Shown here in pieces: positions 8,726 to 32,655 of a stretch of DNA of 33,539 bases. The first letter of the stretch is position 1, and each line of letters opens with the position of its first letter. The translations under genes were made by a program, and so were the position numbers. The notes below the pieces were generated by a model, which was not told the DNA's origin, searched no databases, and saw only the letters and a list, made by a program, of their open reading frames with translations. The stretch is from assembly GCA_003022535.1 (NCBI GenBank), contig PXTT01000072.1, positions 1 to 33,539 of the forward strand. Direction: 5' to 3'. The stretch comes from Bacteroidetes bacterium QS_9_68_14 (GTDB taxonomy: Bacteria > Bacteroidota > Rhodothermia > Rhodothermales > Salinibacteraceae).

Positions 8726-10486
8726 TCATTCCGCCATGCGCTCGGCCGCGCGGAGTGCCGCGTAGGCATTTGCCACGCCGCCGGTGCGCGAGAGCGTGCC
8801 GAAGCGGACCCGCTCGCCGCCGCCGCTGCCGCCGCTTGGGCGACCGGGACGCTTGACCATCTGGCCGGCGCGGCTGGTGGCGGAGGAGAGAATCGCTTCC
8901 TTGACTTGCTCGGCCGAGAGGGACGGGTAGTAGGCCATCACCAGCGCGGCTACGCCCGAGACGACCGGAGCGGCGAAGCTGGTGCCCTGCGCGCGGCCGT
9001 AGGCGTCCCCGGGCCGCGCCACCTGCATCGAAGCGCCCGGCGCGAAGAGGTCCACGCGCTCGCCGCCGTAGTTGGAGAAGGGGGCGGCCAGCAGGCTGTC
9101 GCCCTCGGCGGTAGAGGCGCCCACCTCGATCCAGTTGTCTGCCGCGCCGCTGCCGTCGGCGTAGTGGGCAGAGGGGTAGCTGTCGGTGGTGTCCACGTCG
9201 GCCCCGTCGTTGCCGGCGGCGTGGACCATCAGAACGCCCTCATCCTCGGCATGGCGCACGGCTGCGTCGACGACCTCCTTACGCGGGGAGTAGGCTTTGC
9301 CGAAGCTCATGTTGATGATGTCCGCGCCGTTGTTCGTGGCGTAGCGGATAGCGTTGGCCACGTCTTTGTCGCGCTCGTCGCCGCCGGGGACGGCGCGCAC
9401 GGGCATGATTCTCACCGCCCCGGCCACGCCGCGGATGCCGAGGTCGTTGTCCCGCTCGGCAGCGATGAGGCTGGCCACGCCCGTGCCGTGCCCAGCGTCG
9501 GGGCCTTGCACGTCGGCGTTGCCGTAGATGCGCTCGGTGGCGTCGGAGTAGTCGTCGCCGACGATGGGGCGCGGGTTGTAGTCGGGGTTGAAGTTGTACT
9601 CTGCGCGCGTGCGAAGCTGCTCTTCCGCTTTCTGCAGGTCCTCGGCCAGCGTGGCCAGGTCGGCGGTGTCGGTCCGCTCGAGGAGGCCCGACACGAGGCG
9701 GGCGGCTTGCTGCACGAGCAGCGGGCGGGCCTGCTCGACGAAGCGGGCGATCTGCTGAACCTGGTCGTAGCGTTGCTCGTACTGCTGCTTCTGCTTCTGG
9801 AAGTCGGCCTTGATGCGCTGGTAGCGGCGGTACGTCTCGCGCTCGGCGGCCGTGAGAGTGTCGGGGTTGGCGCCTTCGTAGGGGTCGCGCAGCTCGACGT
9901 AGAGGCGCGTGACCTCGAAGGTGTCGTGCTCGACGTTTTCGCCGCTGGCGTTGCCGAGGAAGTTCCAGCCATGCGTGTCGTCGACGTAGCCGTTGCCGTT
10001 GTCGTCTTCGCCGTTGCCGGGCACCTCGCCGGCGTTGGTCCAGAGCACGCCGTCGAGGTCTTCGTGGTCGGGGTCTACGCCGCCGTCGAGGACGGCCACG
10101 ACGACGGTGTCCTGCGGCGCGCGGTCGCCGAGCCAGTCGTAGGCCCGCTCGGTGGCGATGCCGGGGTAGCCGCCTGCGCCGGCGCTCAGATGCTGCCAGT
10201 CGGTCGGCACCGGGCCGGCCGCGGTGCCGTTTTCGCGCTCCGCGTCTTCGCGTTCGTTGGGAGCCGCCGGCTCAGCGGGCGGGCCGCCAGGCTCCTCGCG
10301 GGGAGCCGGGGCTTCCGTGTCGGCCGGCGGCGCTTCCTCGGTCTCGGGGGCTCCGGTCTCAGATGCCTCTGTGTCAGATGGCGGCGGGGCCGGGTTGGGC
10401 TGCGTGGCCTCGCGCGAGGTCGAGCAGCCGGCGGCGGCGACGAGGAGAAGCGCAACGAAAAGCGGCAGAAAGCGACGCGGCGTCAT
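8726..10486 (-). CDS. Secreted lipoprotein subtilase (S8 peptidase)
   Basis: This 586-residue protein is a subtilisin-like serine protease anchored as a lipoprotein. ATG 10486 begins a signal peptide (MTPRRFLPLFVALLL) with lipobox AAAGC and acylated Cys21. A low-complexity Pro/Glu/Ala linker follows (30-90). The catalytic residues are Asp134 (VAVLDGGVDPDHEDL), His333 (DAGHGTGVASL) and Ser503 (GTSFAAPVVSG), with oxyanion Asn426 (AAGND). An acidic, probably calcium-binding GEDDNGNGYVDDTHGWNF lies after the Asp. The Asp-to-His distance of about 200 residues is far longer than in subtilisin. The insert (185-310) includes a predicted coiled-coil-like Gln/Lys/Glu stretch (about 225-265), an arrangement known from Bacteroidota subtilases. 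The open frame extends upstream to 10606 but lacks a signal sequence there. It lies 129 bases downstream of the histidine kinase gene, on the same strand. Confidence 0.92.
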   Translation of the reverse strand: MTPRRFLPLFVALLLVAAAGCSTSREATQPNPAPPPSDTEASETGAPETEEAPPADTEAPAPREEPGGPPAEPAAPNEREDAERENGTAAGPVPTDWQHLSAGAGGYPGIATERAYDWLGDRAPQDTVVVAVLDGGVDPDHEDLDGVLWTNAGEVPGNGEDDNGNGYVDDTHGWNFLGNASGENVEHDTFEVTRLYVELRDPYEGANPDTLTAAERETYRRYQRIKADFQKQKQQYEQRYDQVQQIARFVEQARPLLVQQAARLVSGLLERTDTADLATLAEDLQKAEEQLRTRAEYNFNPDYNPRPIVGDDYSDATERIYGNADVQGPDAGHGTGVASLIAAERDNDLGIRGVAGAVRIMPVRAVPGGDERDKDVANAIRYATNNGADIINMSFGKAYSPRKEVVDAAVRHAEDEGVLMVHAAGNDGADVDTTDSYPSAHYADGSGAADNWIEVGASTAEGDSLLAAPFSNYGGERVDLFAPGASMQVARPGDAYGRAQGTSFAAPVVSGVAALVMAYYPSLSAEQVKEAILSSATSRAGQMVKRPGRPSGGSGGGERVRFGTLSRTGGVANAYAALRAAERMAE

Positions 10487-16163: not shown

Positions 16164-18602
16164 ATGCCCTCCCTTGCTCGCGCTCGCCTGTTGCTTGCGT
16201 TCCTCTTGGCGTTTGCGCTCCTGGGGGTACCGCCCGCGCAGGCCCAGCAGCAGACCGAGGGCGATGAGGGCTCCCCCCTCACGCTGGAGGACATCCACGC
16301 CTCCGGCGCCTTTTACCCCAACGCCTTCCAGAGCGGCACGTGGGCCGACGAAGGCGCCGTCGTCACCTACATCCAGTCGCGGCAGGCGCAGGTCGGCGGC
16401 GAGGAGCAGCCCGTCACGCACCTTGTGCGCCGCAACCTTCAGACGGGCGAGCGCGAGCGGATCATCGACGGCACCACGCTTACGCCGCCGGGCGTGGACC
16501 ACCCGCTTTTGATCGAGGATTACGCCTACGGCCCCGACGAGGAGCGCCTCCTGCTCTTCACTGACGCGGAGCGCGTCTGGCGCTACAAGACGAAAGGCTA
16601 CTACTACCGCTACGACCTGTCGAGCGGCGCATTGACGCCCATTGCCGAGCGCGAAAAGGGGTTCCAGAAGTTCGCCAAGCTCAGCCCCAGCGGCGACCGC
16701 GTGGCCTTCGTGCGCGAGCGCAATCTCTTCGTGACGGATCTTTCCTCCGGCGAAGAGACGCAGCTCACCTTCGACGGGGCGGACGGCGAAATCATCAACG
16801 GCACCTTCGACTGGGTTTACGAAGAGGAGTTCAGCCTGCGCGACGGGTGGCGGTGGAGCCCCAGCGGGGACCGTATCGCGTTTTTCAAGCTCGACGAAAG
16901 CCAGACGCGCGACTTTTCGCTGACGAACTTCCAGACGCGCTACCCGACCTACAAGGAGTTTCGCTACCCGAAGGCCGGGGAAAAAAACAGCGAGATCAAG
17001 GTCGGCGTGATCGACATGAGCACGGTCGGCGAGGAGGAGCGCCCGGCCATCGAATACTTCGACACGCAGACGTGGAGCGACGACTACGCCAGCGAGGACG
17101 AACGCTACGAGTACATCGCCCGCATGGGTTGGACGCCGGAGATGCAGGGCGGCGCGAAGGTGTGGATGCTCCGCCTGAACCGCGACCAGAACCGCCTCGG
17201 GCTGCTCTACGGCGATCCGCAGAGCATGGATGTGGAGACGGTGCTCACCGAGCAGGAGGACAGCTACATCGACGTGAGCGGGGCGAAGATCAACTATCTC
17301 GCAGGGAACGATGGTGCCGGCGACCCCGGCCACTTCGTATTCGCCAGCGAGAACAGCGGCTACCGTCACCTTTACCTGCACGACGCGGCCACCGGCGAGC
17401 GCGTGCGTCCCATCACCGGGGGCGACTGGGAAGTGACCGGCTTCCACGGCCTCGACCGGGAGAACGGGCGCGCCTACGTGACCGGGACGCGCGAGCGCTC
17501 CACCGAGCGCCACCTCTACCGTGTGCCCTTCTCGATGGAGGCCGCCAGTACGGCGGGCCAGGCCACGCGCGTCACCGAGCGCCCTGGCACGCACGCCGTC
17601 GATATGGCGCCCTCGCAGGACTACTTCATCGACGACTTCAGCGCGGCGGACACCCCGCCGATCACGACGCTTCACGCCACGCCGGGCGGGGAGCGCCTGA
17701 AGGTACTGGAAGGCAACGAGGACCTGCGCGAGCGCCTTTCGGGCATGGCCCCGCTCCCGGAGCCGACGTTCACGACGGTGCCCGGCGCGGGGGACGACCG
17801 GCTCAACGCCTACCTCGTCAAGCCCACTGACTTCGACGCCTCGGAGCAGTACCCGATGCTCGTCTACGTCTACGGCGGACCCGGCGTGCAGACGGTCATG
17901 AACCGTTGGGGTGGACCGCGCGAGCTGTGGCACAAGTACCTCGCCGACGAACTGGACGTGGTCGTCGCCAGCGTGGACAACCGCGGCACCGGCGGGCGCG
18001 GCAAGGCCTTCCAGGACGTGCCCTACGGGCAACTCGGCGTCCCCGAGGCGGCCGACCAGCAGGCCGCCGCGCGCCACTTTGCCGACCGGTCGTTTGTGGA
18101 CGGCGGACGCATCGGCATCTGGGGCTGGAGCTACGGCGGCTACCTGACGCTCCTCTCGATGCTCAAAGACCAAGGGCCGCAGATCTTCGACGCGGGCATG
18201 GCCGTGGCGCCCGTCACCGACTGGCGTTTCTATGACACGATCTACACCGAGCGCTATATGTCCACGCCGCAGAAAAACCCTGAAGGCTACGACGAGGGAT
18301 CTCCGATCAACTACGCCGAAAACTTGCGCGAGGAGCAGCGCCTGCTGATGGCGCATGGGGACTTCGACGACAACGTGCACTTCCAGAACAGCCAGCAGAT
18401 GGCCGCCGCGCTCCAGGAGGCCGGCAAGCAGTTTGAGTACATGGTCTACCCCGGCAAGGATCACGGCATCACCGGCGGCGGAACGCGCCTGCACCTTTTT
18501 ACGATGCTGACGGACTTCGTGCGCTCGGAGCTGGCCACGCCCGAGGAGGCCATCGCCGCGGGTGAGGAGGATGCCGAGGCCGTGCCGACGGAAGGGCGTT
18601 GA
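16164..18602 (+). CDS. Dipeptidyl peptidase IV (S9B family), secreted
   Basis: This 812-residue serine peptidase removes X-Pro or X-Ala dipeptides from peptide N-termini. ATG 16164 begins a signal peptide (MPSLARARLLLAFLLAFALL, cleavage near AQAQ); a GTG nine bases upstream is a weaker option. An eight-bladed beta-propeller domain (about 60-540) carries the double-Glu motif DWVYEEEF (E220, E221), which grips the substrate amino terminus. The alpha/beta-hydrolase domain has nucleophile Ser656 (GWSYGGYL), Asp735 (HGDFDDNVHF) and His767 (GKDHGI). Length and motifs match bacterial periplasmic DPP IV, so it is intact. In Bacteroidota-type bacteria such enzymes finish peptide breakdown in the periplasm, which fits the secreted subtilase nearby. 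A hairpin lies right after the stop. Confidence 0.94.
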   Translation: MPSLARARLLLAFLLAFALLGVPPAQAQQQTEGDEGSPLTLEDIHASGAFYPNAFQSGTWADEGAVVTYIQSRQAQVGGEEQPVTHLVRRNLQTGERERIIDGTTLTPPGVDHPLLIEDYAYGPDEERLLLFTDAERVWRYKTKGYYYRYDLSSGALTPIAEREKGFQKFAKLSPSGDRVAFVRERNLFVTDLSSGEETQLTFDGADGEIINGTFDWVYEEEFSLRDGWRWSPSGDRIAFFKLDESQTRDFSLTNFQTRYPTYKEFRYPKAGEKNSEIKVGVIDMSTVGEEERPAIEYFDTQTWSDDYASEDERYEYIARMGWTPEMQGGAKVWMLRLNRDQNRLGLLYGDPQSMDVETVLTEQEDSYIDVSGAKINYLAGNDGAGDPGHFVFASENSGYRHLYLHDAATGERVRPITGGDWEVTGFHGLDRENGRAYVTGTRERSTERHLYRVPFSMEAASTAGQATRVTERPGTHAVDMAPSQDYFIDDFSAADTPPITTLHATPGGERLKVLEGNEDLRERLSGMAPLPEPTFTTVPGAGDDRLNAYLVKPTDFDASEQYPMLVYVYGGPGVQTVMNRWGGPRELWHKYLADELDVVVASVDNRGTGGRGKAFQDVPYGQLGVPEAADQQAAARHFADRSFVDGGRIGIWGWSYGGYLTLLSMLKDQGPQIFDAGMAVAPVTDWRFYDTIYTERYMSTPQKNPEGYDEGSPINYAENLREEQRLLMAHGDFDDNVHFQNSQQMAAALQEAGKQFEYMVYPGKDHGITGGGTRLHLFTMLTDFVRSELATPEEAIAAGEEDAEAVPTEGR

Positions 18603-18614
18603 GGAATTGGTTTT

Positions 18615-18684
18615 CTGGTTGGGTGGTTTGGTGATTCTTGCGTGGGCAACCCATCGCCAATCCAAAAACCACTGAACCAACCAG
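18615..18684 (+). terminator. Imperfect inverted repeat after DPP IV
   Basis: CTGGTTGG plus GTGGTTT (18615-18629) pair with AAACCAC and CCAACCAG (ending at 18684), separated by small bulges and a loop of about 30 bases. It begins 13 bases after the DPP IV stop and is the only structured element in the 163-base spacer. The low-complexity G/T and A/C arms are unlike coding DNA and may represent a dispersed intergenic repeat type. Confidence 0.4.
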
Positions 18685-18765
18685 CCGCCCGGCGGAACCG
18701 CGTTGCCGCGTTGCTGCTACACGCTTCTCCCGCACTCCCAATCCCCTCGCACTTCCGCAGCACGC

Positions 18766-19194
18766 ATGGCCACGCTTCCCGACGAACTTACCCACCTCGA
18801 CGCCGACGTGGCGCGCGACCTCTTTTTCGAGGCCGCCTCGCACGCCTTCAACTCCATCATGGTCACGACCGCCGAGGAGACGGGCAACGGGCCTATCGTC
18901 TTCGTCAACGACGCCTTCACCGAGATGACCGGCTATACCGAGGAGGAGGTCCTCGGCGAGACGCCCGGTCTCATGCAGGGTCCCGAGACCGACCAGGACG
19001 AGCTGGACCGCCTGGCGCAGGACCTCCAAGACGGCAAGGTCTTCCAGGGCGAGACGGTCAACTACAAAAAGGACGGCTCCGCATTCCAAATCGAGTGGAA
19101 GGTGGCCCCGGTCGAGAACGCGCAGGGCGAGGTGACGCACTACGTGGCCATCCAGCGCGACGTGACGGCCCGGCGCGAGGCTGAGGCGGCGTGA
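18766..19194 (+). CDS. Single PAS-domain protein, LOV-like without the reactive Cys
   Basis: This 142-residue protein is one PAS domain with short flanks. A helix (EAASHAFNSIMVTTA) precedes IVFVNDAFTEMTGYTEEEVLGETPGLMQGPETDQDELD, NYKKDGSAFQIEW, and VTHYVAIQRDVTARREAEAA, which begins a signalling helix. Spacing is the same as in LOV photoreceptors, including the Asn of NYKKDG and the Gln of QRDVT that contact flavin there. However, the NCRFLQ motif is TPGLMQ, so the photoactive Cys is absent, and the second flavin-contact Asn (FWN) is FQI. It is therefore probably a non-photochemical PAS sensor. No output domain is attached. Its TGA overlaps the GTG of the downstream nucleotidyltransferase by four bases, so the two are likely translated together. 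Confidence 0.85.
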   Translation: MATLPDELTHLDADVARDLFFEAASHAFNSIMVTTAEETGNGPIVFVNDAFTEMTGYTEEEVLGETPGLMQGPETDQDELDRLAQDLQDGKVFQGETVNYKKDGSAFQIEWKVAPVENAQGEVTHYVAIQRDVTARREAEAA

Positions 19195-19586
19195 GCGGCT
19201 TTTCGGCAACGCCCCCAGTCCCAATGGATTCCTCCTCCACGCAGACGCGGCCCGGCGCGCCTACCGACGACGCGTTGCCCGCCGGCGACGCCGTCGTCGA
19301 GCGCTTCGTGCGCGACATCGTGGCGGCGGTGGACCCCTTGCGCATTCTCCTGTTCGGCTCGCGGGCGCGGGGTGAAGCGGAGCCTGAAAGCGACCTCGAC
19401 CTGCTGGTCGTCGTGCCCGAGGGCACCGACCGGCGGAAGGTGGCGATGGACCTCTACGAAGACATTCCGCGCAACGGTACGGCGATGGACGTGCTCGTGG
19501 CCACGCCCTCGGTGCTGGAGCGCCACCGCGACAACCCCGGTCTGGTCTACCGCACGATTCTCGAAGAGGGCCGCGAAGTCCATTGA
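19191..19586 (+). CDS. Minimal nucleotidyltransferase (MNT-like)
   Basis: This protein of up to 131 residues is a stand-alone DNA-polymerase-beta-fold nucleotidyltransferase of the MNT type. The signature GS(x10)DxD is exact in GSRARGEAEPESDLDLLVVV, and the third carboxylate is in AMDVLVA. The C-terminal helix ERHRDNPGLVYRTILEEGREV is also typical. Known relatives are antitoxins that nucleotidylate a HEPN toxin partner. Here no HEPN/DUF86 gene is found on either side, and the upstream partner is the PAS gene, which it overlaps if GTG 19191 is the start. ATG 19224 is an alternative that removes a low-complexity N-terminus and would leave a 29-base gap. Function is unknown beyond probable transfer of a nucleotide to a protein or small molecule. 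Confidence 0.85.
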   Translation: MSGFSATPPVPMDSSSTQTRPGAPTDDALPAGDAVVERFVRDIVAAVDPLRILLFGSRARGEAEPESDLDLLVVVPEGTDRRKVAMDLYEDIPRNGTAMDVLVATPSVLERHRDNPGLVYRTILEEGREVH

Positions 19587-19623
19587 CAGCAACGCCGCTC
19601 TCACGCCCTACGCAACACACCCC

Positions 19624-20768
19624 GTGCCCGCCACGCCCGATCTGCTCATCCAGTCCGCCACGTTGCTCTGGCCCGAAAGCGGCGAGACGCGCGTGGCCGA
19701 TGTGCTCATCCAGGGCGGCGAGATCGCGCAGATCGGCACGGACCTCGCGGCAGAGGACGTAGAGCCCTTCGACGCCGAGGGGCTGACCGTCTCGCCCGGC
19801 TGGGTGGACCTGCACGTGCATCTGCGCGAGCCGGGGCAGGAGCACAAAGAAACCATCCAGACCGGCACGCGCGCGGCGGCGGCCAGCGGCTTCACCGACG
19901 TGGCCTGCATGCCCAACACCGACCCCCCGCTCGACACGCGCGAGGGCGTGGAGTTCGTGCGCGAGCAGGCCGAGGGGCAGCCGGTGGCCGTGCACCCTAT
20001 TGGGTGCGTCTCGAAGGGGCGCGACGGGCACGAGCTGGCCGAGATGGGCGCGCTGGCGGAGGGCGGAGCGGTCGCCTTCAGCGACGACGGGGCGCCCGTC
20101 TACGATGCCGCCCTGATGCGCCGCGCGCTGGAGTACAGCCGCATGGTCGGCGCGCCGGTCGTCAACCACATGGAAGCGCGCGCGCTTTCGAAAAACGGCC
20201 ACATGCACGAGGGCGAAGTCTCCGCGCGCCTCGGGCTCGGCGGCATCCCCGCCCTCGCCGACGACGTGATGATCGCCCGCGACGTGCGGCTGGCGGAGGC
20301 GACCGGCGGGCATCTGCACGTGGCGCACCTTTCCACGAAAGGCGGCGTCGAGGCGGTGCGCCGGGCGAAGGCGCGCGGTCTCAATGTCACCGCCGAGGTG
20401 TGCACGCACCACCTTGCTCTCACCGACCGCGCCGTGGAGGACACCGCGTTTTCTACGCACACGAAAATGCACCCGCCCCTGCGCGGCCCCGAGCACGTGG
20501 AGGCGCTAAAAAACGGCCTCGCCTCACGCTGGCGGAGGCGATCCAGAAGCTCACCGCCGCCCCGCGCGAGGTGCTGGGGCTCCCCGCCGCGCGCCTCGCG
20601 GAAGGAGAGCCGGCGAATCTCACGATCTTCGACCCCGAGGCGCGCTGGACCTTTTCCGAAAGCCACATCCACTCGAAGAGCCAGAACACGCCCTTCGTGG
20701 GGACGAAGCTGGTGGGCCGTCCCGTGGGGGTCTACAATCGAGGGCGATTCGTAGATAGTGGATTGTAG
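19624..20768 (+). pseudogene. pyrC: Dihydroorotase with internal deletion and frameshift
   Basis: The reading frame encodes a type I dihydroorotase, the third step of pyrimidine synthesis. A GTG at 19624 starts PATPDLLIQSATLLWP, followed by the metal motif WVDLHVHLREPGQEHKE, FTDVACMPNTDPP, AFSDDGAPV, VVNHMEARAL, LHVAHLSTKGG, VTAEVCTHHLALT and KMHPPLRGPEHVEALKNGLA. At about 20518-20524 the sequence jumps to LTLAEAIQKLTAAPREVLGLP in another frame, then EGEPANLTIFDP and FVGTKLVGRPVGV. Intact enzymes have about 35-45 residues between these points, including the catalytic TDHAPH segment (DxAxH). So a stretch of a length not divisible by three is missing. The product could not be active as written. 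The coding signal on both sides of the junction is otherwise pristine, so the loss is recent or artefactual. Confidence 0.85.
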
Positions 20769-27112: not shown

Positions 27113-28195
27113 ATGACCTCCGCCTCCGCCGCCGACGCGCATGCGCTTCTGGATGCGCACGACCCCATTCTACTGACCACCCACACCAGCCCCGACGGCG
27201 ACGCCATCGGCTCGGAGCTGGGGCTGGCGCGCTACCTGCGGCAGCGGGGCAAGCGCGTGACCATCCTCAACGACGACGACCTGCCCGACCACCTCGCGTT
27301 CCTGCCGGGCGCGGAGGAGGTTGAGGTCTTCGCGGAAGCGTCCGTCGAGCAAAAGAAAGCCCTCGCGGAGGCGGAGCTCGCCGTGGCGCTGGACACCAAC
27401 GCCGCCGAGCGCCTTGGGGCCCTGGCCGAGCCGATCCAGCAGGGCGGGGCCGAGGTGCTGCTGATCGACCATCACACCGAGCCGGAGGGCTGGTTCGACC
27501 ACGCCTTTCAGCGCGACACCGCCGCCGCCACCGCCGAGCTGCTCTGCGAAGTGATCGAGGCGGGCGCTCCCGAGCTGATCGACGCGGACGTGGCCACGCC
27601 GCTCTACACGGGGCTGATGACCGACACCGGCTCGTTCCGCTACTCCAGTGTGACGCCGCGGGTGCACCGTACGACGGCCACGCTCCTGCAGCGCGGCGGC
27701 ATCTCGCCTGCGCCCATCCACTCGGCGCTCTACGACAACCGCTCGCTCGCGTCGCTGCGTTTGCTGGGGCGGGCGCTGGACCGCATTCGCCTGCGCTACG
27801 ACGGGTTCGTGGGCTACACCACCGTCACGCCCGCGGTGCTGGAGGCCGCCGGCGCGGGGCCGGAGGACAAGCACGGCCTCGTCGGCCACGTCCTCAGCGT
27901 GGCCGGGGTGGGGGCGGCGTTGCTCTTTACCGAGACGCAGGGCGGCACGAAAGTCAGCTTCCGCTCCGAGGGCGATACGCACGTGGACGGCTGGGCGCGC
28001 TCCTTCGGCGGGGGCGGGCACCGGAACGCCAGTGGGGCCTACCTCGAGGAGTTTTCGCTCGCCGAGGCGCTCGATGACGTGCTCGCCGCCGCGCCACAGC
28101 ACATCGGGGTGGAGCCGGAGGAGGCGCGCGGCGCGCTCACCGGCGAAGACGCCGCCGACCTGGCCGCCGCGATGAAGGCGCAGGGAGCGGGTTGA
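27113..28195 (+). CDS. DHH/DHHA1 phosphoesterase, NrnA type
   Basis: This 360-residue protein is a DHH-family phosphoesterase of the NrnA type (bifunctional oligoribonuclease and 3'-phosphoadenosine 5'-phosphate phosphatase), which clears short RNAs or pAp; some relatives hydrolyse cyclic dinucleotide products. Motifs visible in order are THTSPDGDAIGSELGL (metal site I), ALDTNAAERLG, LLIDHHTEPEGW (the DHH signature), LMTDTGSFRYSS, and the DHHA1 domain closing with GWARSFGGGGHRNASGAYL, the GGGH substrate-binding motif. Length is typical apart from about 25 extra C-terminal residues. ATG 27113 begins about 20 residues before the first motif, as usual. It is on the same strand as the lipoprotein gene, 106 bases downstream, and ends at a hairpin. 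Confidence 0.92.
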   Translation: MTSASAADAHALLDAHDPILLTTHTSPDGDAIGSELGLARYLRQRGKRVTILNDDDLPDHLAFLPGAEEVEVFAEASVEQKKALAEAELAVALDTNAAERLGALAEPIQQGGAEVLLIDHHTEPEGWFDHAFQRDTAAATAELLCEVIEAGAPELIDADVATPLYTGLMTDTGSFRYSSVTPRVHRTTATLLQRGGISPAPIHSALYDNRSLASLRLLGRALDRIRLRYDGFVGYTTVTPAVLEAAGAGPEDKHGLVGHVLSVAGVGAALLFTETQGGTKVSFRSEGDTHVDGWARSFGGGGHRNASGAYLEEFSLAEALDDVLAAAPQHIGVEPEEARGALTGEDAADLAAAMKAQGAG

Positions 28196-28228
28196 GCGCG
28201 GGGCGCGCTGCGCATCTCTGCCCCGCGC
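28196..28228. terminator. Bidirectional hairpin between nrnA-type gene and capA-like gene
   Basis: GCGCGGGGC pairs perfectly with GCCCCGCGC around a 15-base loop, starting on the base after the nrnA-type stop codon. The convergent capA-like gene ends at 28255, so the nine-pair stem can serve both. No T-run follows on either strand. Confidence 0.5.
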
Positions 28229-28254
28229 CCCTGGGACGACTTTCCGGCGCGGGG

Positions 28255-29181
28255 TCACTCCGTCCCGGACGAGCGCGGATGAACGCGGCACTGGCGGGGG
28301 GCCGTGCGGTCCAGGCGTACCGCCTGGTAGCGCGCCTCGGCCACTACCGGCGGTGCGTCGGGCGGGTGCGCCAGCCCGATCTTTAGAAGCGCCCCTTCTC
28401 CGAGCACGGGTAGCGTCTTGGCCGTTAGGAAATTGCCGAGCGACCAGGCCACGAGCGGGCCGTCCGTCACGTCCTCCAGCGGCTGGGGCAGGTGCGAGTG
28501 GTGCCCGGCGACGAGTTCGTAGTTGAGGGGCAGGCGGTGGCGCTGGTTCGAGCGGGGGCGGCGCTCGTGCTCGTAGCCCCAGTGCGGAAGCGCCACGCGC
28601 GCCAGCGGGGCCGACGCCGCTTCGGGCGCCCCGGGGTCGCGCCGGGGAAGCAGCGTCGTCCTCCGGTTGCTCCACCACGTCCATGCCGCCAGCGCGAGGC
28701 CCGCTTCTGGCACCGTGAGCGTCGGGTGCTCGCGCGTGCCCAGCCAGCGGATGCCGTGCCGGTTGAGGCGCGCGGTCGTGGTGCGCAGCGCCGGCGGCCC
28801 AAAGTCCGCGGCATGGTTGTTGGCGAGCGACACGACCCACTGCCGGAGTGGCTTCAAGCGCGCCATCGCGTCGAAGATGGATGGCGTGTGCTTTAGCCGG
28901 AAGGGCCGGCCACGCTGCTTGGTGAAGACGCCTTCGAGATTGCCGACCAGCAACGCGCAATCGTCGAAGAACGCGTGGACGGCCTCCGCGTAGCGGGCGT
29001 CGCGCCCGTCGAGCGGGCAGAGGTCGCCTACGAACCCGATCCAGCGGTCCGGCGCCCGGTGGGGATGGCGGTCGAGGTGCCGGGCTACAGGCGCGTCACC
29101 CCAGGGCGGGACCGGCGAGAAGCGACGCCACGCCATGCCGGCGAACTCGCGCAGTGAATACGGGCTTCCGGGGAAACGCAT
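28255..29181 (-). CDS. CapA-family metallophosphatase-like protein
   Basis: This 308-residue protein is of the CapA/PgsA-type (PGA_cap) family, a calcineurin-like fold found in capsule poly-gamma-glutamate synthesis proteins and many relatives of unknown role. Visible motifs are IGFVGDLCP (metal Asp), LLVGNLEGVFT, FRLKHTPSIFDAM, VVSLANNHAADFG (the Asn-His pair of the family), ALPHWGYEHERRPR and ELVAGHHSHLPQPLE, and AWSLGNFLT. A signal peptide is not evident, unlike classical membrane-bound CapA. ATG 29181 is used; the first conserved motif is at about residue 48. Poly-gamma-glutamate synthase partners (CapB/C) are absent, so capsule synthesis should not be assumed. It lies 97 bases after the MFS gene on the same strand. 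Confidence 0.82.
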   Translation of the reverse strand: MRFPGSPYSLREFAGMAWRRFSPVPPWGDAPVARHLDRHPHRAPDRWIGFVGDLCPLDGRDARYAEAVHAFFDDCALLVGNLEGVFTKQRGRPFRLKHTPSIFDAMARLKPLRQWVVSLANNHAADFGPPALRTTTARLNRHGIRWLGTREHPTLTVPEAGLALAAWTWWSNRRTTLLPRRDPGAPEAASAPLARVALPHWGYEHERRPRSNQRHRLPLNYELVAGHHSHLPQPLEDVTDGPLVAWSLGNFLTAKTLPVLGEGALLKIGLAHPPDAPPVVAEARYQAVRLDRTAPRQCRVHPRSSGTE

Positions 29182-29249
29182 GGAAAAACGGGTCGTTCGT
29201 GCGTGCCGTCAGTCCGTCGCGCGTGGGGACCGGCGGGGCGCTTGCGCCA

Positions 29250-29281
29250 TGCGGCGCCTGCGTCGTGCGGCGCCTGCGTCA
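29250..29281. repeat. Two-copy 16-bp tandem repeat at the end of the MFS gene
   Basis: TGCGGCGCCTGCGTCG is followed directly by TGCGGCGCCTGCGTCA, differing only at the last base. The second copy contains the MFS stop codon on the minus strand. It is a small tandem duplication in the spacer before the capA-like gene. Confidence 0.6.
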
Positions 29282-30550
29282 TGCCTTGACGGCGAGCTGC
29301 GTGGCGCGTGGCCAGTACAGCAACGCCAGGACCCCGCCGCTCACGGCCACGGCGGACAGAAAAATGCCCTGGAACCCCAGCAGCGCGTCGAGCGGCACGA
29401 TGAGGCCGCTGCCCAGCACGTTGCAGAGGTTGCCCAGGGTCATGTAAGTGGTAAACTGCGTGGCGGCGACCTCTTCGCGCACCGTGTCCATGAACAGCGC
29501 CGCGAGGGTGGTCTTGAGCGTCATGTCCAGCAGCATGGCCAGGCCCACGAAGGCTACGACGACGCCGTCGGCCGGCCACCAGGGGCGCGCCAGCGTGAAG
29601 GCAACCAGCAACATCAGGAGGCCGGCGGTCGTGCCTACGAGCGTGCGCCGCCGGCCCAGGCGGTCGGCGACCCACCCGCCGAGGGCCGCCCCCACGACGC
29701 CCATCAGGAGCGCCGGCCCGCCCGTGAACTGCGAGTAGCCGAGGTCCGACCACCCGGCCGCCTGCACGGCAAAGACCGGCCCGATGGCGACCAACATGCG
29801 CGTCGGCAGGGCGGCGACGAGCGCCAGCCCGGCGGCGGCCCGGGCGGGGGCGGGGCGAAAGGCGCGCCGCAGCTTGACCAGCAGGCGGCGCCACCCGTCC
29901 TGCGTGCTCTTCCGAGCCCACGCGCTGCGCACAGCCGCAGGCGGCGCCAGCAGACGGTCGCCGGCCCGCTCGCGCACCAACAGCACGAGCACCACCGCCC
30001 CGAAGAGTCCCCCGATCTGCGCCCAGACTGCCGCGTCGAAGTGGACCCGGGCAATCAGCGTGCTCAGGCCCGCTCCGCCCACGGCAATGCCCAGCACCTT
30101 TCCGCTCCACATGAGCCCATTGGCGATTCCGCGTTCGTCCTCGTCGAGCAGGTCCACGGCCAGCCCGTCGGTAGCTACGTCTTGCAGCGCTCCGAACGTG
30201 TTGTGGAAAAACAGCAGTGCCGCCAGCGCGACGGGCCGGTGGCCTGCGCCCGGCACGGCCAGCAGCAGCGCCATCGAGCCTACCATGCCGACCTGCGAGA
30301 GCAGAATCCAGGGCCGCCGCCGCCCCATCGGGGACATGGCGTAGCGGTCCACGAGCGGCCCGTAGATCAGCTTAAACGTCCAGGGCAGATAGCTCACGGC
30401 CAGGAAGGCGGCCACGGCGCTTGCCGAAAAACCCTGGTCGGCCAGCAGGGCCGCCAGCGTGACGGTTCCGAAACCCGTCGGGATGCCCTGCGTCAGGTAT
30501 AGGACGCTCAGGACGGGGAGCCGCAGCCGGGACGCGTTCGACAGCGTCAT
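29279..30550 (-). CDS. MFS transporter
   Basis: This protein of about 423 residues is a major-facilitator transporter with roughly twelve hydrophobic segments. The N-terminal half has LSVLYLTQGIPTGFGTVTLAALL, FAVSYLPWTFKLIYGPLVDR-like text (AFLAVSYLPWTFKLIYG) and the loop signature DRYAMSPMGRRRPWIL after segment 2. The start of this half resembles AmpG/acetyl-CoA-transporter (PAT) relatives, which share the LPWTFK-YGPLVDR motif. The corresponding C-terminal loop GGWVADRLGRRR is also present. A long basic cytosolic loop joins the halves. ATG 30550 is chosen because it directly precedes the first segment; ATG 30643 would add 31 residues that include another hydrophobic stretch. A muropeptide substrate is conceivable from the AmpG resemblance but is not shown. 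Confidence 0.85.
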   Translation of the reverse strand: MTLSNASRLRLPVLSVLYLTQGIPTGFGTVTLAALLADQGFSASAVAAFLAVSYLPWTFKLIYGPLVDRYAMSPMGRRRPWILLSQVGMVGSMALLLAVPGAGHRPVALAALLFFHNTFGALQDVATDGLAVDLLDEDERGIANGLMWSGKVLGIAVGGAGLSTLIARVHFDAAVWAQIGGLFGAVVLVLLVRERAGDRLLAPPAAVRSAWARKSTQDGWRRLLVKLRRAFRPAPARAAAGLALVAALPTRMLVAIGPVFAVQAAGWSDLGYSQFTGGPALLMGVVGAALGGWVADRLGRRRTLVGTTAGLLMLLVAFTLARPWWPADGVVVAFVGLAMLLDMTLKTTLAALFMDTVREEVAATQFTTYMTLGNLCNVLGSGLIVPLDALLGFQGIFLSAVAVSGGVLALLYWPRATQLAVKA

Positions 30551-30654
30551 GCAGGCGGTGAGGGCAAACAGCAGGAACTCCGCGTGACGCGCCCAGCGAC
30601 TGCGCGGTTCGGAGCGCTCCGGCACGCTCCTCGAGAGGGCCATGCCGCTCGCTC

Positions 30655-30660
30655 TATACT
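30655..30660 (+). promoter_or_regulatory. Possible -10 box upstream of pdxA
   Basis: TATACT lies 44 bases before the pdxA ATG. The same CTATACT heptamer forms the -10 of the lipoprotein promoter (26241-26247) and occurs in the spacer at 8546-8552. No good -35 box is seen here. Confidence 0.25.
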
Positions 30661-30704
30661 ACCACCCTCGGCCAGCAATTGCAACGTTGCCAGCAGGAAA
30701 ACGC

Positions 30705-31838
30705 ATGAGCGAAGTCCATTCCGCGCGCCGTCCCGTCGTGGCCGTTCCGCTGGGGGACCCCGGCGGCATCGGGCCGGAGGTGGCCCTCAAAGCCGCCACT
30801 GACGAGCGCATCCGGCAGAAGGCGCGGCTGCTGATGGTCGGCTCGGCGGCCGTGCTGCGCAGCCACGCCGACGCGCTCGCTGAGCGCTTCTCCTCCCCGG
30901 GAGAACAGGAGCGCGCGTTGCCGGAGCTGGCCGTCGTGCCGGGCGTGCCGGACCGCTTTCCTGAGGGCGCGTTGCCCGTGCTGGACGTGGCCGAGCCGGA
31001 GGCGCCGGGTTTTTCTTTCGGCGAAGTCACCCGAGCCGGCGGACGTCTCTCGATGCGCGCCGTGGAGCGCGCCGTGGAGCTCTGCGACGCCGGCGCTGCC
31101 GACGCGATGACGACCGCGCCCATCTCGAAGGCCGCCATCGCTCGCGCTGGCTACCGCGCCCCCGGCCACACCGAGTTCATCGCCGAGAAGACCAGTGGCC
31201 CTGGGCAGCAGTTTGAGCCGCTTATGCTGATGGTCGGCGCTCCGGCCGTCGGCGATGCTTCTGCGTTGCGCGTGGGGCTGGTAAGCGTGCACGAGCCGCT
31301 GGCGCAGGCGCCCCGTTCGGTGACGCCCGGCGCGATCCGGCGCAAGCTGGAGGTCTTGACCGGGAGCCTACGGCGCGACTTTGGCGCGCAGGCGCCCCGC
31401 ATCGCGGTGCTGGGCCTCAACCCGCACGCCGGCGACGACGGCGCGCTGGGCGAGAAAGAGGAAACGATCATCGCGCCGGCGCTCCGGGCGGCCCGCCACG
31501 ACGACGGCCTGGCTGAACAAGGCGCCACGCTCGACGGCCCGTTGCCGGCCGACGGCTTCTTCGGCACGCGCGGGTGGGAGCGCTACGACGCGGTGCTGGC
31601 GATGTACCACGACCAGGGGCTGGCGCCCTTCAAGGCGCTCACCTTCGGCAAGGGGGTCAACGTGACGGCGGGCCTGCCGGTCGTGCGCACCTCGCCGGAC
31701 CACGGCACGGCTTTCGACATCGCGGGCGAGGGGTGCGCCCACCCCGGCAGTATGAAAGCGGCGCTGCGCCTCGCCACCGACATTGCGCAAAGGCGCCAGG
31801 CCGTGGACCGTCGAACCCAGCGTGAGCGGCGCAAATGA
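30705..31838 (+). CDS. pdxA: 4-hydroxythreonine-4-phosphate dehydrogenase
   Basis: This 377-residue enzyme oxidises 4-phosphohydroxy-L-threonine in the DXP-dependent vitamin B6 pathway. Conserved parts are PVVAVPLGDPGGIGPEVALKA at the start, DAMTTAPISKAAIARAGY, PGHTEFIAE (first metal His), GLVSVHEPL (second His), LGLNPHAGDDGALGEKE, DGPLPADGFF, and AMYHDQGLAPFKAL (third metal His), ending with RTSPDHGTAFDIAG. All three zinc ligands are present and length is only slightly above the usual 330, so it looks functional. ATG 30705 is chosen because homology begins ten residues later and an AGGAAA-like ribosome site lies just upstream, rare in this window. Its stop overlaps the ATG of the methyltransferase (ATGA), suggesting an operon that runs on towards ftsE. 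PLP made by this pathway serves alr and the transsulfuration enzyme. Confidence 0.95.
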   Translation: MSEVHSARRPVVAVPLGDPGGIGPEVALKAATDERIRQKARLLMVGSAAVLRSHADALAERFSSPGEQERALPELAVVPGVPDRFPEGALPVLDVAEPEAPGFSFGEVTRAGGRLSMRAVERAVELCDAGAADAMTTAPISKAAIARAGYRAPGHTEFIAEKTSGPGQQFEPLMLMVGAPAVGDASALRVGLVSVHEPLAQAPRSVTPGAIRRKLEVLTGSLRRDFGAQAPRIAVLGLNPHAGDDGALGEKEETIIAPALRAARHDDGLAEQGATLDGPLPADGFFGTRGWERYDAVLAMYHDQGLAPFKALTFGKGVNVTAGLPVVRTSPDHGTAFDIAGEGCAHPGSMKAALRLATDIAQRRQAVDRRTQRERRK

Positions 31839-32655
31839 CGAGCCAATCCGAAAACCAAAACCTCGAATCCGAAATCTACACCGCGGCCTTGGCGGAGGCG
31901 TACGAGGCGGTCATGGCGCACGTGGACTACCCGCGCTGGGCCAGCTACGCGCACGACCTCCTGCAGGCGCACGCTTCGCCGAAGCGGGGGCCGCTGGGGC
32001 CGCGTCGCCTTCTGGAGCTGGGCTGTGGCACCGGGGCGCTGGCGCGCCATCTCCAGCGGCCCGCGCCCAGTCGCTGCCCCTCCGGTTTCGGCCGGCGCGC
32101 TTCACCCGCGTGGCCGGCGACCTGGCGGAGGGGAAGGCGCCCTTCGACGTCGCGTTCTTCGACGCCGCGTTGCTGCTGTACGACGGGCTTAACTATCTGC
32201 TCGAGGAGCGCCGGGTGCGCCGCCTGCTCGCGGAGGTCACGCGCGTGCTGCGGCCTGGCGGCCTCTTTCTGTTCGACCACGCCACGCCGGCCAACTCCGC
32301 CGACGGCCCCGACCCGTTCGAGTATGAGGGCGTCTTTGAGGACGAGCGTTTCGAGGACGCGTGCGAGGGGCGCTACTGGCGCACCAGCCGATACGACCCT
32401 GGCGCGCGCTTGCACTACACGACCTTCGAGCTAAGGGGCCCGGCGGGAAGCTACACCGAGCGCCACGTGCAGCGCGTCTACGACCCCGGCGAGGTCCGCG
32501 CGTTGCTGCACCGTAGCCCGCTGGTGCCGGTGGCTGCCTACGACGGCCTCACCACCGACCCGGCCACGCCGCAGAGCCACCGCGTGCACTGGCTGGCGCG
32601 CTCGGGTACGGGAGAGAGGGGGAGTGCGGGAGAAAATCGGGCCGCCAGTGAGTAA
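31835..32655 (+). pseudogene. Class I SAM methyltransferase with internal deletion and frameshift
   Basis: The first frame from ATG 31835 encodes a class I methyltransferase start, IYTAALAEAYEAVMAHVDYPRW, and SAM motif I RLLELGCGTGALARHLQ. Near 32055-32070 this frame turns into Arg/Pro/Ser-rich nonsense. The frame one step over then continues as good protein: AQSLPLRFRPARFTRVAGDL, FDVAFFDAALLLYDGLNYLLEE, VTRVLRPGGLFLFDHATP, and a full C-terminal half ending near 32655. In intact relatives about 20-30 residues (motif II with its acidic residue, and the helix after it) lie between the two parts. So a piece whose length is not a multiple of three is missing. The substrate is unknown. It overlaps the pdxA stop and is followed by ftsE. 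Confidence 0.8.

Follow-up and report, generated by a model that had tools for sequence, protein, structure and literature searches.

The dihydroorotase gene pyrC, as read in the window (the whole stretch of 33,539 nucleotides analysed here), is split into two pieces in different frames and lacks the segment that bears the motif TDHAPH. Judged by sequence comparison, this loss is probably an assembly artefact, in which a segment like that of the sister genome was dropped for technical reasons. The assembly of QS_9_68_14 would then have joined contig ends without the intervening 148 bases inside pyrC. Under this explanation, the losses seen in this genome would originate in assembly or scaffolding, and the living cell would carry an intact pyrC. 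The main references are the sister G001 (PXTS01000034, MAG QS_8_68_28), which is the closest genome compared, and the next relative G002 (MAG SW_4_67_19). The gene is laid out as follows.

19624 to 20523, forward strand: 5' part of pyrC (type-I dihydroorotase), matching positions 5-282 of the TIGR00857 profile, with 97% protein identity to sister G001 and 79% to G002
20522 to 20525, forward strand: pyrC joint, where 148 bp of sister G001 (about 49 codons, with TDHAPH) are missing and 1 nt is shared
20523 to 20768, forward strand: 3' part of pyrC in another frame, running to the stop codon, matching profile positions 329-408 of TIGR00857, with NCBIfam matches

The window pyrC is an ordinary single-copy bacterial type-I gene of a Salinibacter-like Bacteroidetes MAG. 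Profile searches in two frames placed the two TIGR00857 matches at 19693-20523 and 20514-20753, with 262.5 and 66.3 bits, respectively. Only these two pieces were recovered, and no single open pyrC frame above the family cut-off of 279 bits was found in the window. Translation likely starts at the GTG at 19624, because this codon aligns with the ATG of G002 (MPSAPDLLIQ in G002, VPATPDLLIQ in the window). The N-terminal HxH metal motif is present as HVHLREP, and both flanks, including this motif and the C-terminal region, align with type-I bacterial PyrC (TIGR00857; solved structures 1XRF, 3D6N, and 3MPG). Unlike these enzymes, the window gene is divided between two frames and lacks about 49 residues, and the DxAxH segment (TDHAPH) was not found at the joint. 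In this amidohydrolase family the Asp of TDHAPH is catalytic, and the enzyme as read in the window would be inactive because this residue is lost. A shortened product or a frameshifted read-through could in principle still be a functional enzyme, as the upstream frame remains open for 76 further codons past the joint. However, the sequence after the joint in that frame is unrelated to dihydroorotase, there is no sign of frame recoding, and the missing TDHAPH segment belongs to a conserved block that can be aligned with solved dihydroorotases, the Aquifex aeolicus enzyme among them. A working short enzyme therefore merits next to no credence.

Comparison with the sister defines the joint precisely. 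The window pyrC is short of exactly 148 bp relative to G001, and because 148 leaves a remainder of 1 when divided by 3, the frame breaks. At the missing segment, the sister DNA codes for about 49 residues, TDHAPH among them. The 144 bases directly left of the joint (20380-20523) are identical to the sister, and to the right the match resumes 148 sister bases later, with 1 nt (C) common to both breakpoints. The correspondence of the two aligned pyrC sequences, and hence the joint, is far above chance because identity is 97% up to the joint and these left-hand bases are identical. TDHAPH is kept in all 29 relatives whose loci were read (order level or closer), including G001 and G002. An earlier note on this DNA had described a pyrC without its DxAxH segment and with an internally broken frame, and this description is borne out by the joint at 20523, the two-frame TIGR00857 match, and the sister comparison. 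Its estimate of 35-45 residues or 100-140 bp was correct in that a segment is lost, and slightly low in size. The proposed recombination between short CGCC repeats did not hold, as the breakpoints share a single C and the right one carries no CGCC. Deletion between direct repeats more generally was rejected, since no direct repeat occurs at both breakpoints. Nor is strong folding of the missing piece supported as a cause, since it is less structured than the majority of tiles cut from this gene (rank 35 of 42).

Substitution patterns indicate that the gene was under purifying selection. Between window and sister, dN/dS (omega) is 0.16 for the 5' part of pyrC and 0.24 for the 3' part, and the neighbouring genes are intact with similar values. 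In these alignments, pyrC appears constrained through most of the divergence between window and sister, which is still compatible with a very recent loss; omega between two MAGs provides no date for that loss.

At one locus, a recent real deletion and an assembly loss look alike. An assembly fault is the most likely explanation because similar short losses recur in other QS_9_68_14 genes and not in the nearest relative. Stretches amounting to 383 kb of QS_9_68_14 and 672 kb of the sister were sampled, which yielded 128 kb of aligned sequence. In this sample, clean losses of 60-150 bp numbered 11 in QS_9_68_14, at loci unrelated to each other and not mirrored in the sister, versus 2 in G001. 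Some of these 11 events may lie between genes or stem from the alignment. The clean losses that resemble that of pyrC span 64-148 bp, with almost no sequence common to the two sides of the joint. Reading frames were assessed from the codon phase of mismatches on either side of each loss, and in five cases, including the 148 bp of pyrC, the frame is continuous in the sister and broken in QS_9_68_14. One of the 11, the 74-bp event at 9727, was dropped as a frame break, as the frame is open in both genomes. Within the window itself, a methyltransferase gene shows a frame-breaking loss of 67 bp at 32057/32058 relative to the sister.

31835 to 32057, forward strand: 5' part of the methyltransferase gene; the sister has one uninterrupted ORF of 281 aa, and the window frame is broken after the 67-bp loss
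32058 to 32655, forward strand: 3' part of this methyltransferase gene, read in a different frame, as compared with the sister

In the sister, the 67-bp piece is flanked by inverted GGCCCGCGC-type repeats. By codon phase, a 967-aa ORF is broken by a 140-bp loss and a glycosyltransferase-like gene by a 92-bp loss, and both are open in the sister. The same applies to folC (contig C55, L088, near 13880), where a 104-bp loss breaks a frame that is open in the sister. Profile searches matched folC positions 1-84 and 133-396 in QS_9_68_14 and the whole gene in G001 and G002; the two pieces flank about 48 missing residues, in the same pattern as pyrC.

A technical cause is also simpler, because the sampled rate of loss, if it held for a real genome, would leave many conserved genes broken. 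The earlier note had offered lost bases in the assembly as one of two readings, and this is the better supported one, although the loss amounts to 148 bp. The closest parallel is with gene-breaking assembly errors and false pseudogenes in draft genomes (compare PMC11017572). The likeness lies in a single draft genome with several short, clean losses from conserved genes that its relatives keep whole; the difference is that in QS_9_68_14 the error is deduced from the pattern and not from reads. The way the relatives' records are named may point to the Atacama salt-crust study, which used IDBA_UD scaffolds (PMC5532433). A separate contig bearing the missing pyrC piece was not found in the bin by profile search.

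The main alternative is a real 148-bp deletion; the sampled population would then have an inactive pyrC and need pyrimidine salvage or cross-feeding. The deletion is present in the sequence as given, the single shared nucleotide fits end-joining, and a profile search of the bin turned up no further pyrC of bacterial type. Against this stand the comparable losses seen in a number of unrelated genes, folC among them, albeit in a small sample, together with the intact pyrC of relatives and the apparent constraint on both pyrC flanks. Aspartate carbamoyltransferase (pyrB) and PyrE are also kept, both scoring above cut-off in the bin. A true carB was not found in the bin and is only partial in the sister, although with the bin 56% complete the absence of other genes weighs little. 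On balance, a real deletion is unlikely, and the version in the earlier note, in which CGCC repeats mediated it in a strain needing another pyrC, lacks support for its mechanism. If the deletion were true, it would imply pyrimidine dependence within a hypersaline community. Considerably more doubtful is a hypersaline Bacteroidetes population truly without PyrC activity that keeps the other steps and is fed pyrimidines or intermediates by neighbouring haloarchaea.

The second pyrC that the earlier note advised looking for does exist as a full-length gene on contig C34; it is of archaeal type, however, and lies at a chimeric or contaminating contig end. Its product is a complete dihydroorotase with the TDHAPH motif (671 bits to NF002668, cut-off 452), and the contig also bears bacterial rpsI, rpsB, tsf, pyrH, and frr, named from their translations, with pyrH confirmed as bacterial type by profile. 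The cell might thus use this PyrC, gained by gene transfer, leaving its own pyrC free to decay. Yet about the first 6.5 kb of the contig (L066, 1-6900) looks haloarchaeal, with the archaeal pyrC, DUF5806, and DUF7529. The neighbouring DUF5806 occurs in 0 of 20 relatives and, among 14 controls, in Haloferax volcanii only, and a gene at the NF002668 level was found in no relative. Close to the border, at about 6.3-6.6 kb, the start of pyrC is repeated in inverted orientation, as in a chimeric join. A tblastn search of the C34 PyrC against plasmids gave no hit above 60% identity and hence no pointer to its origin. The C34 pyrC was rejected as a backup, being of archaeal type and next to a haloarchaeal marker; its use by the cell is highly improbable, and the stretch is best read as a chimera or as contamination from a haloarchaeon. 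This joining of haloarchaeal DNA to bacterial ribosomal genes on one contig demonstrates that the bin is error-prone, which favours an assembly fault in pyrC as well. Because short pieces of coding sequence are lost repeatedly and one contig mixes two domains, claims of gene absence or auxotrophy from QS_9_68_14 need read support.

The comparison with the sister gave some further observations. About 2.5 kb of the window (28195-30720), with CapA-like and MFS transporter genes, is missing at the same place on the sister contig. Near pyrC, sister contig C36 (L009) carries a run of 127 N within the pyrC N-terminus, and in the sister's nucleotidyltransferase gene upstream of pyrC, 39 bp between GGCGATGGAC repeats are deleted in frame. 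The pyrC joint falls inside a tract (17750-20760) where window and sister differ little at synonymous sites, with dS of 0.04-0.2 in genes at 18.7-20.8 kb versus about 0.3-0.5 for most neighbours. This tract suggests recent exchange, or close populations mixed in the assembly.
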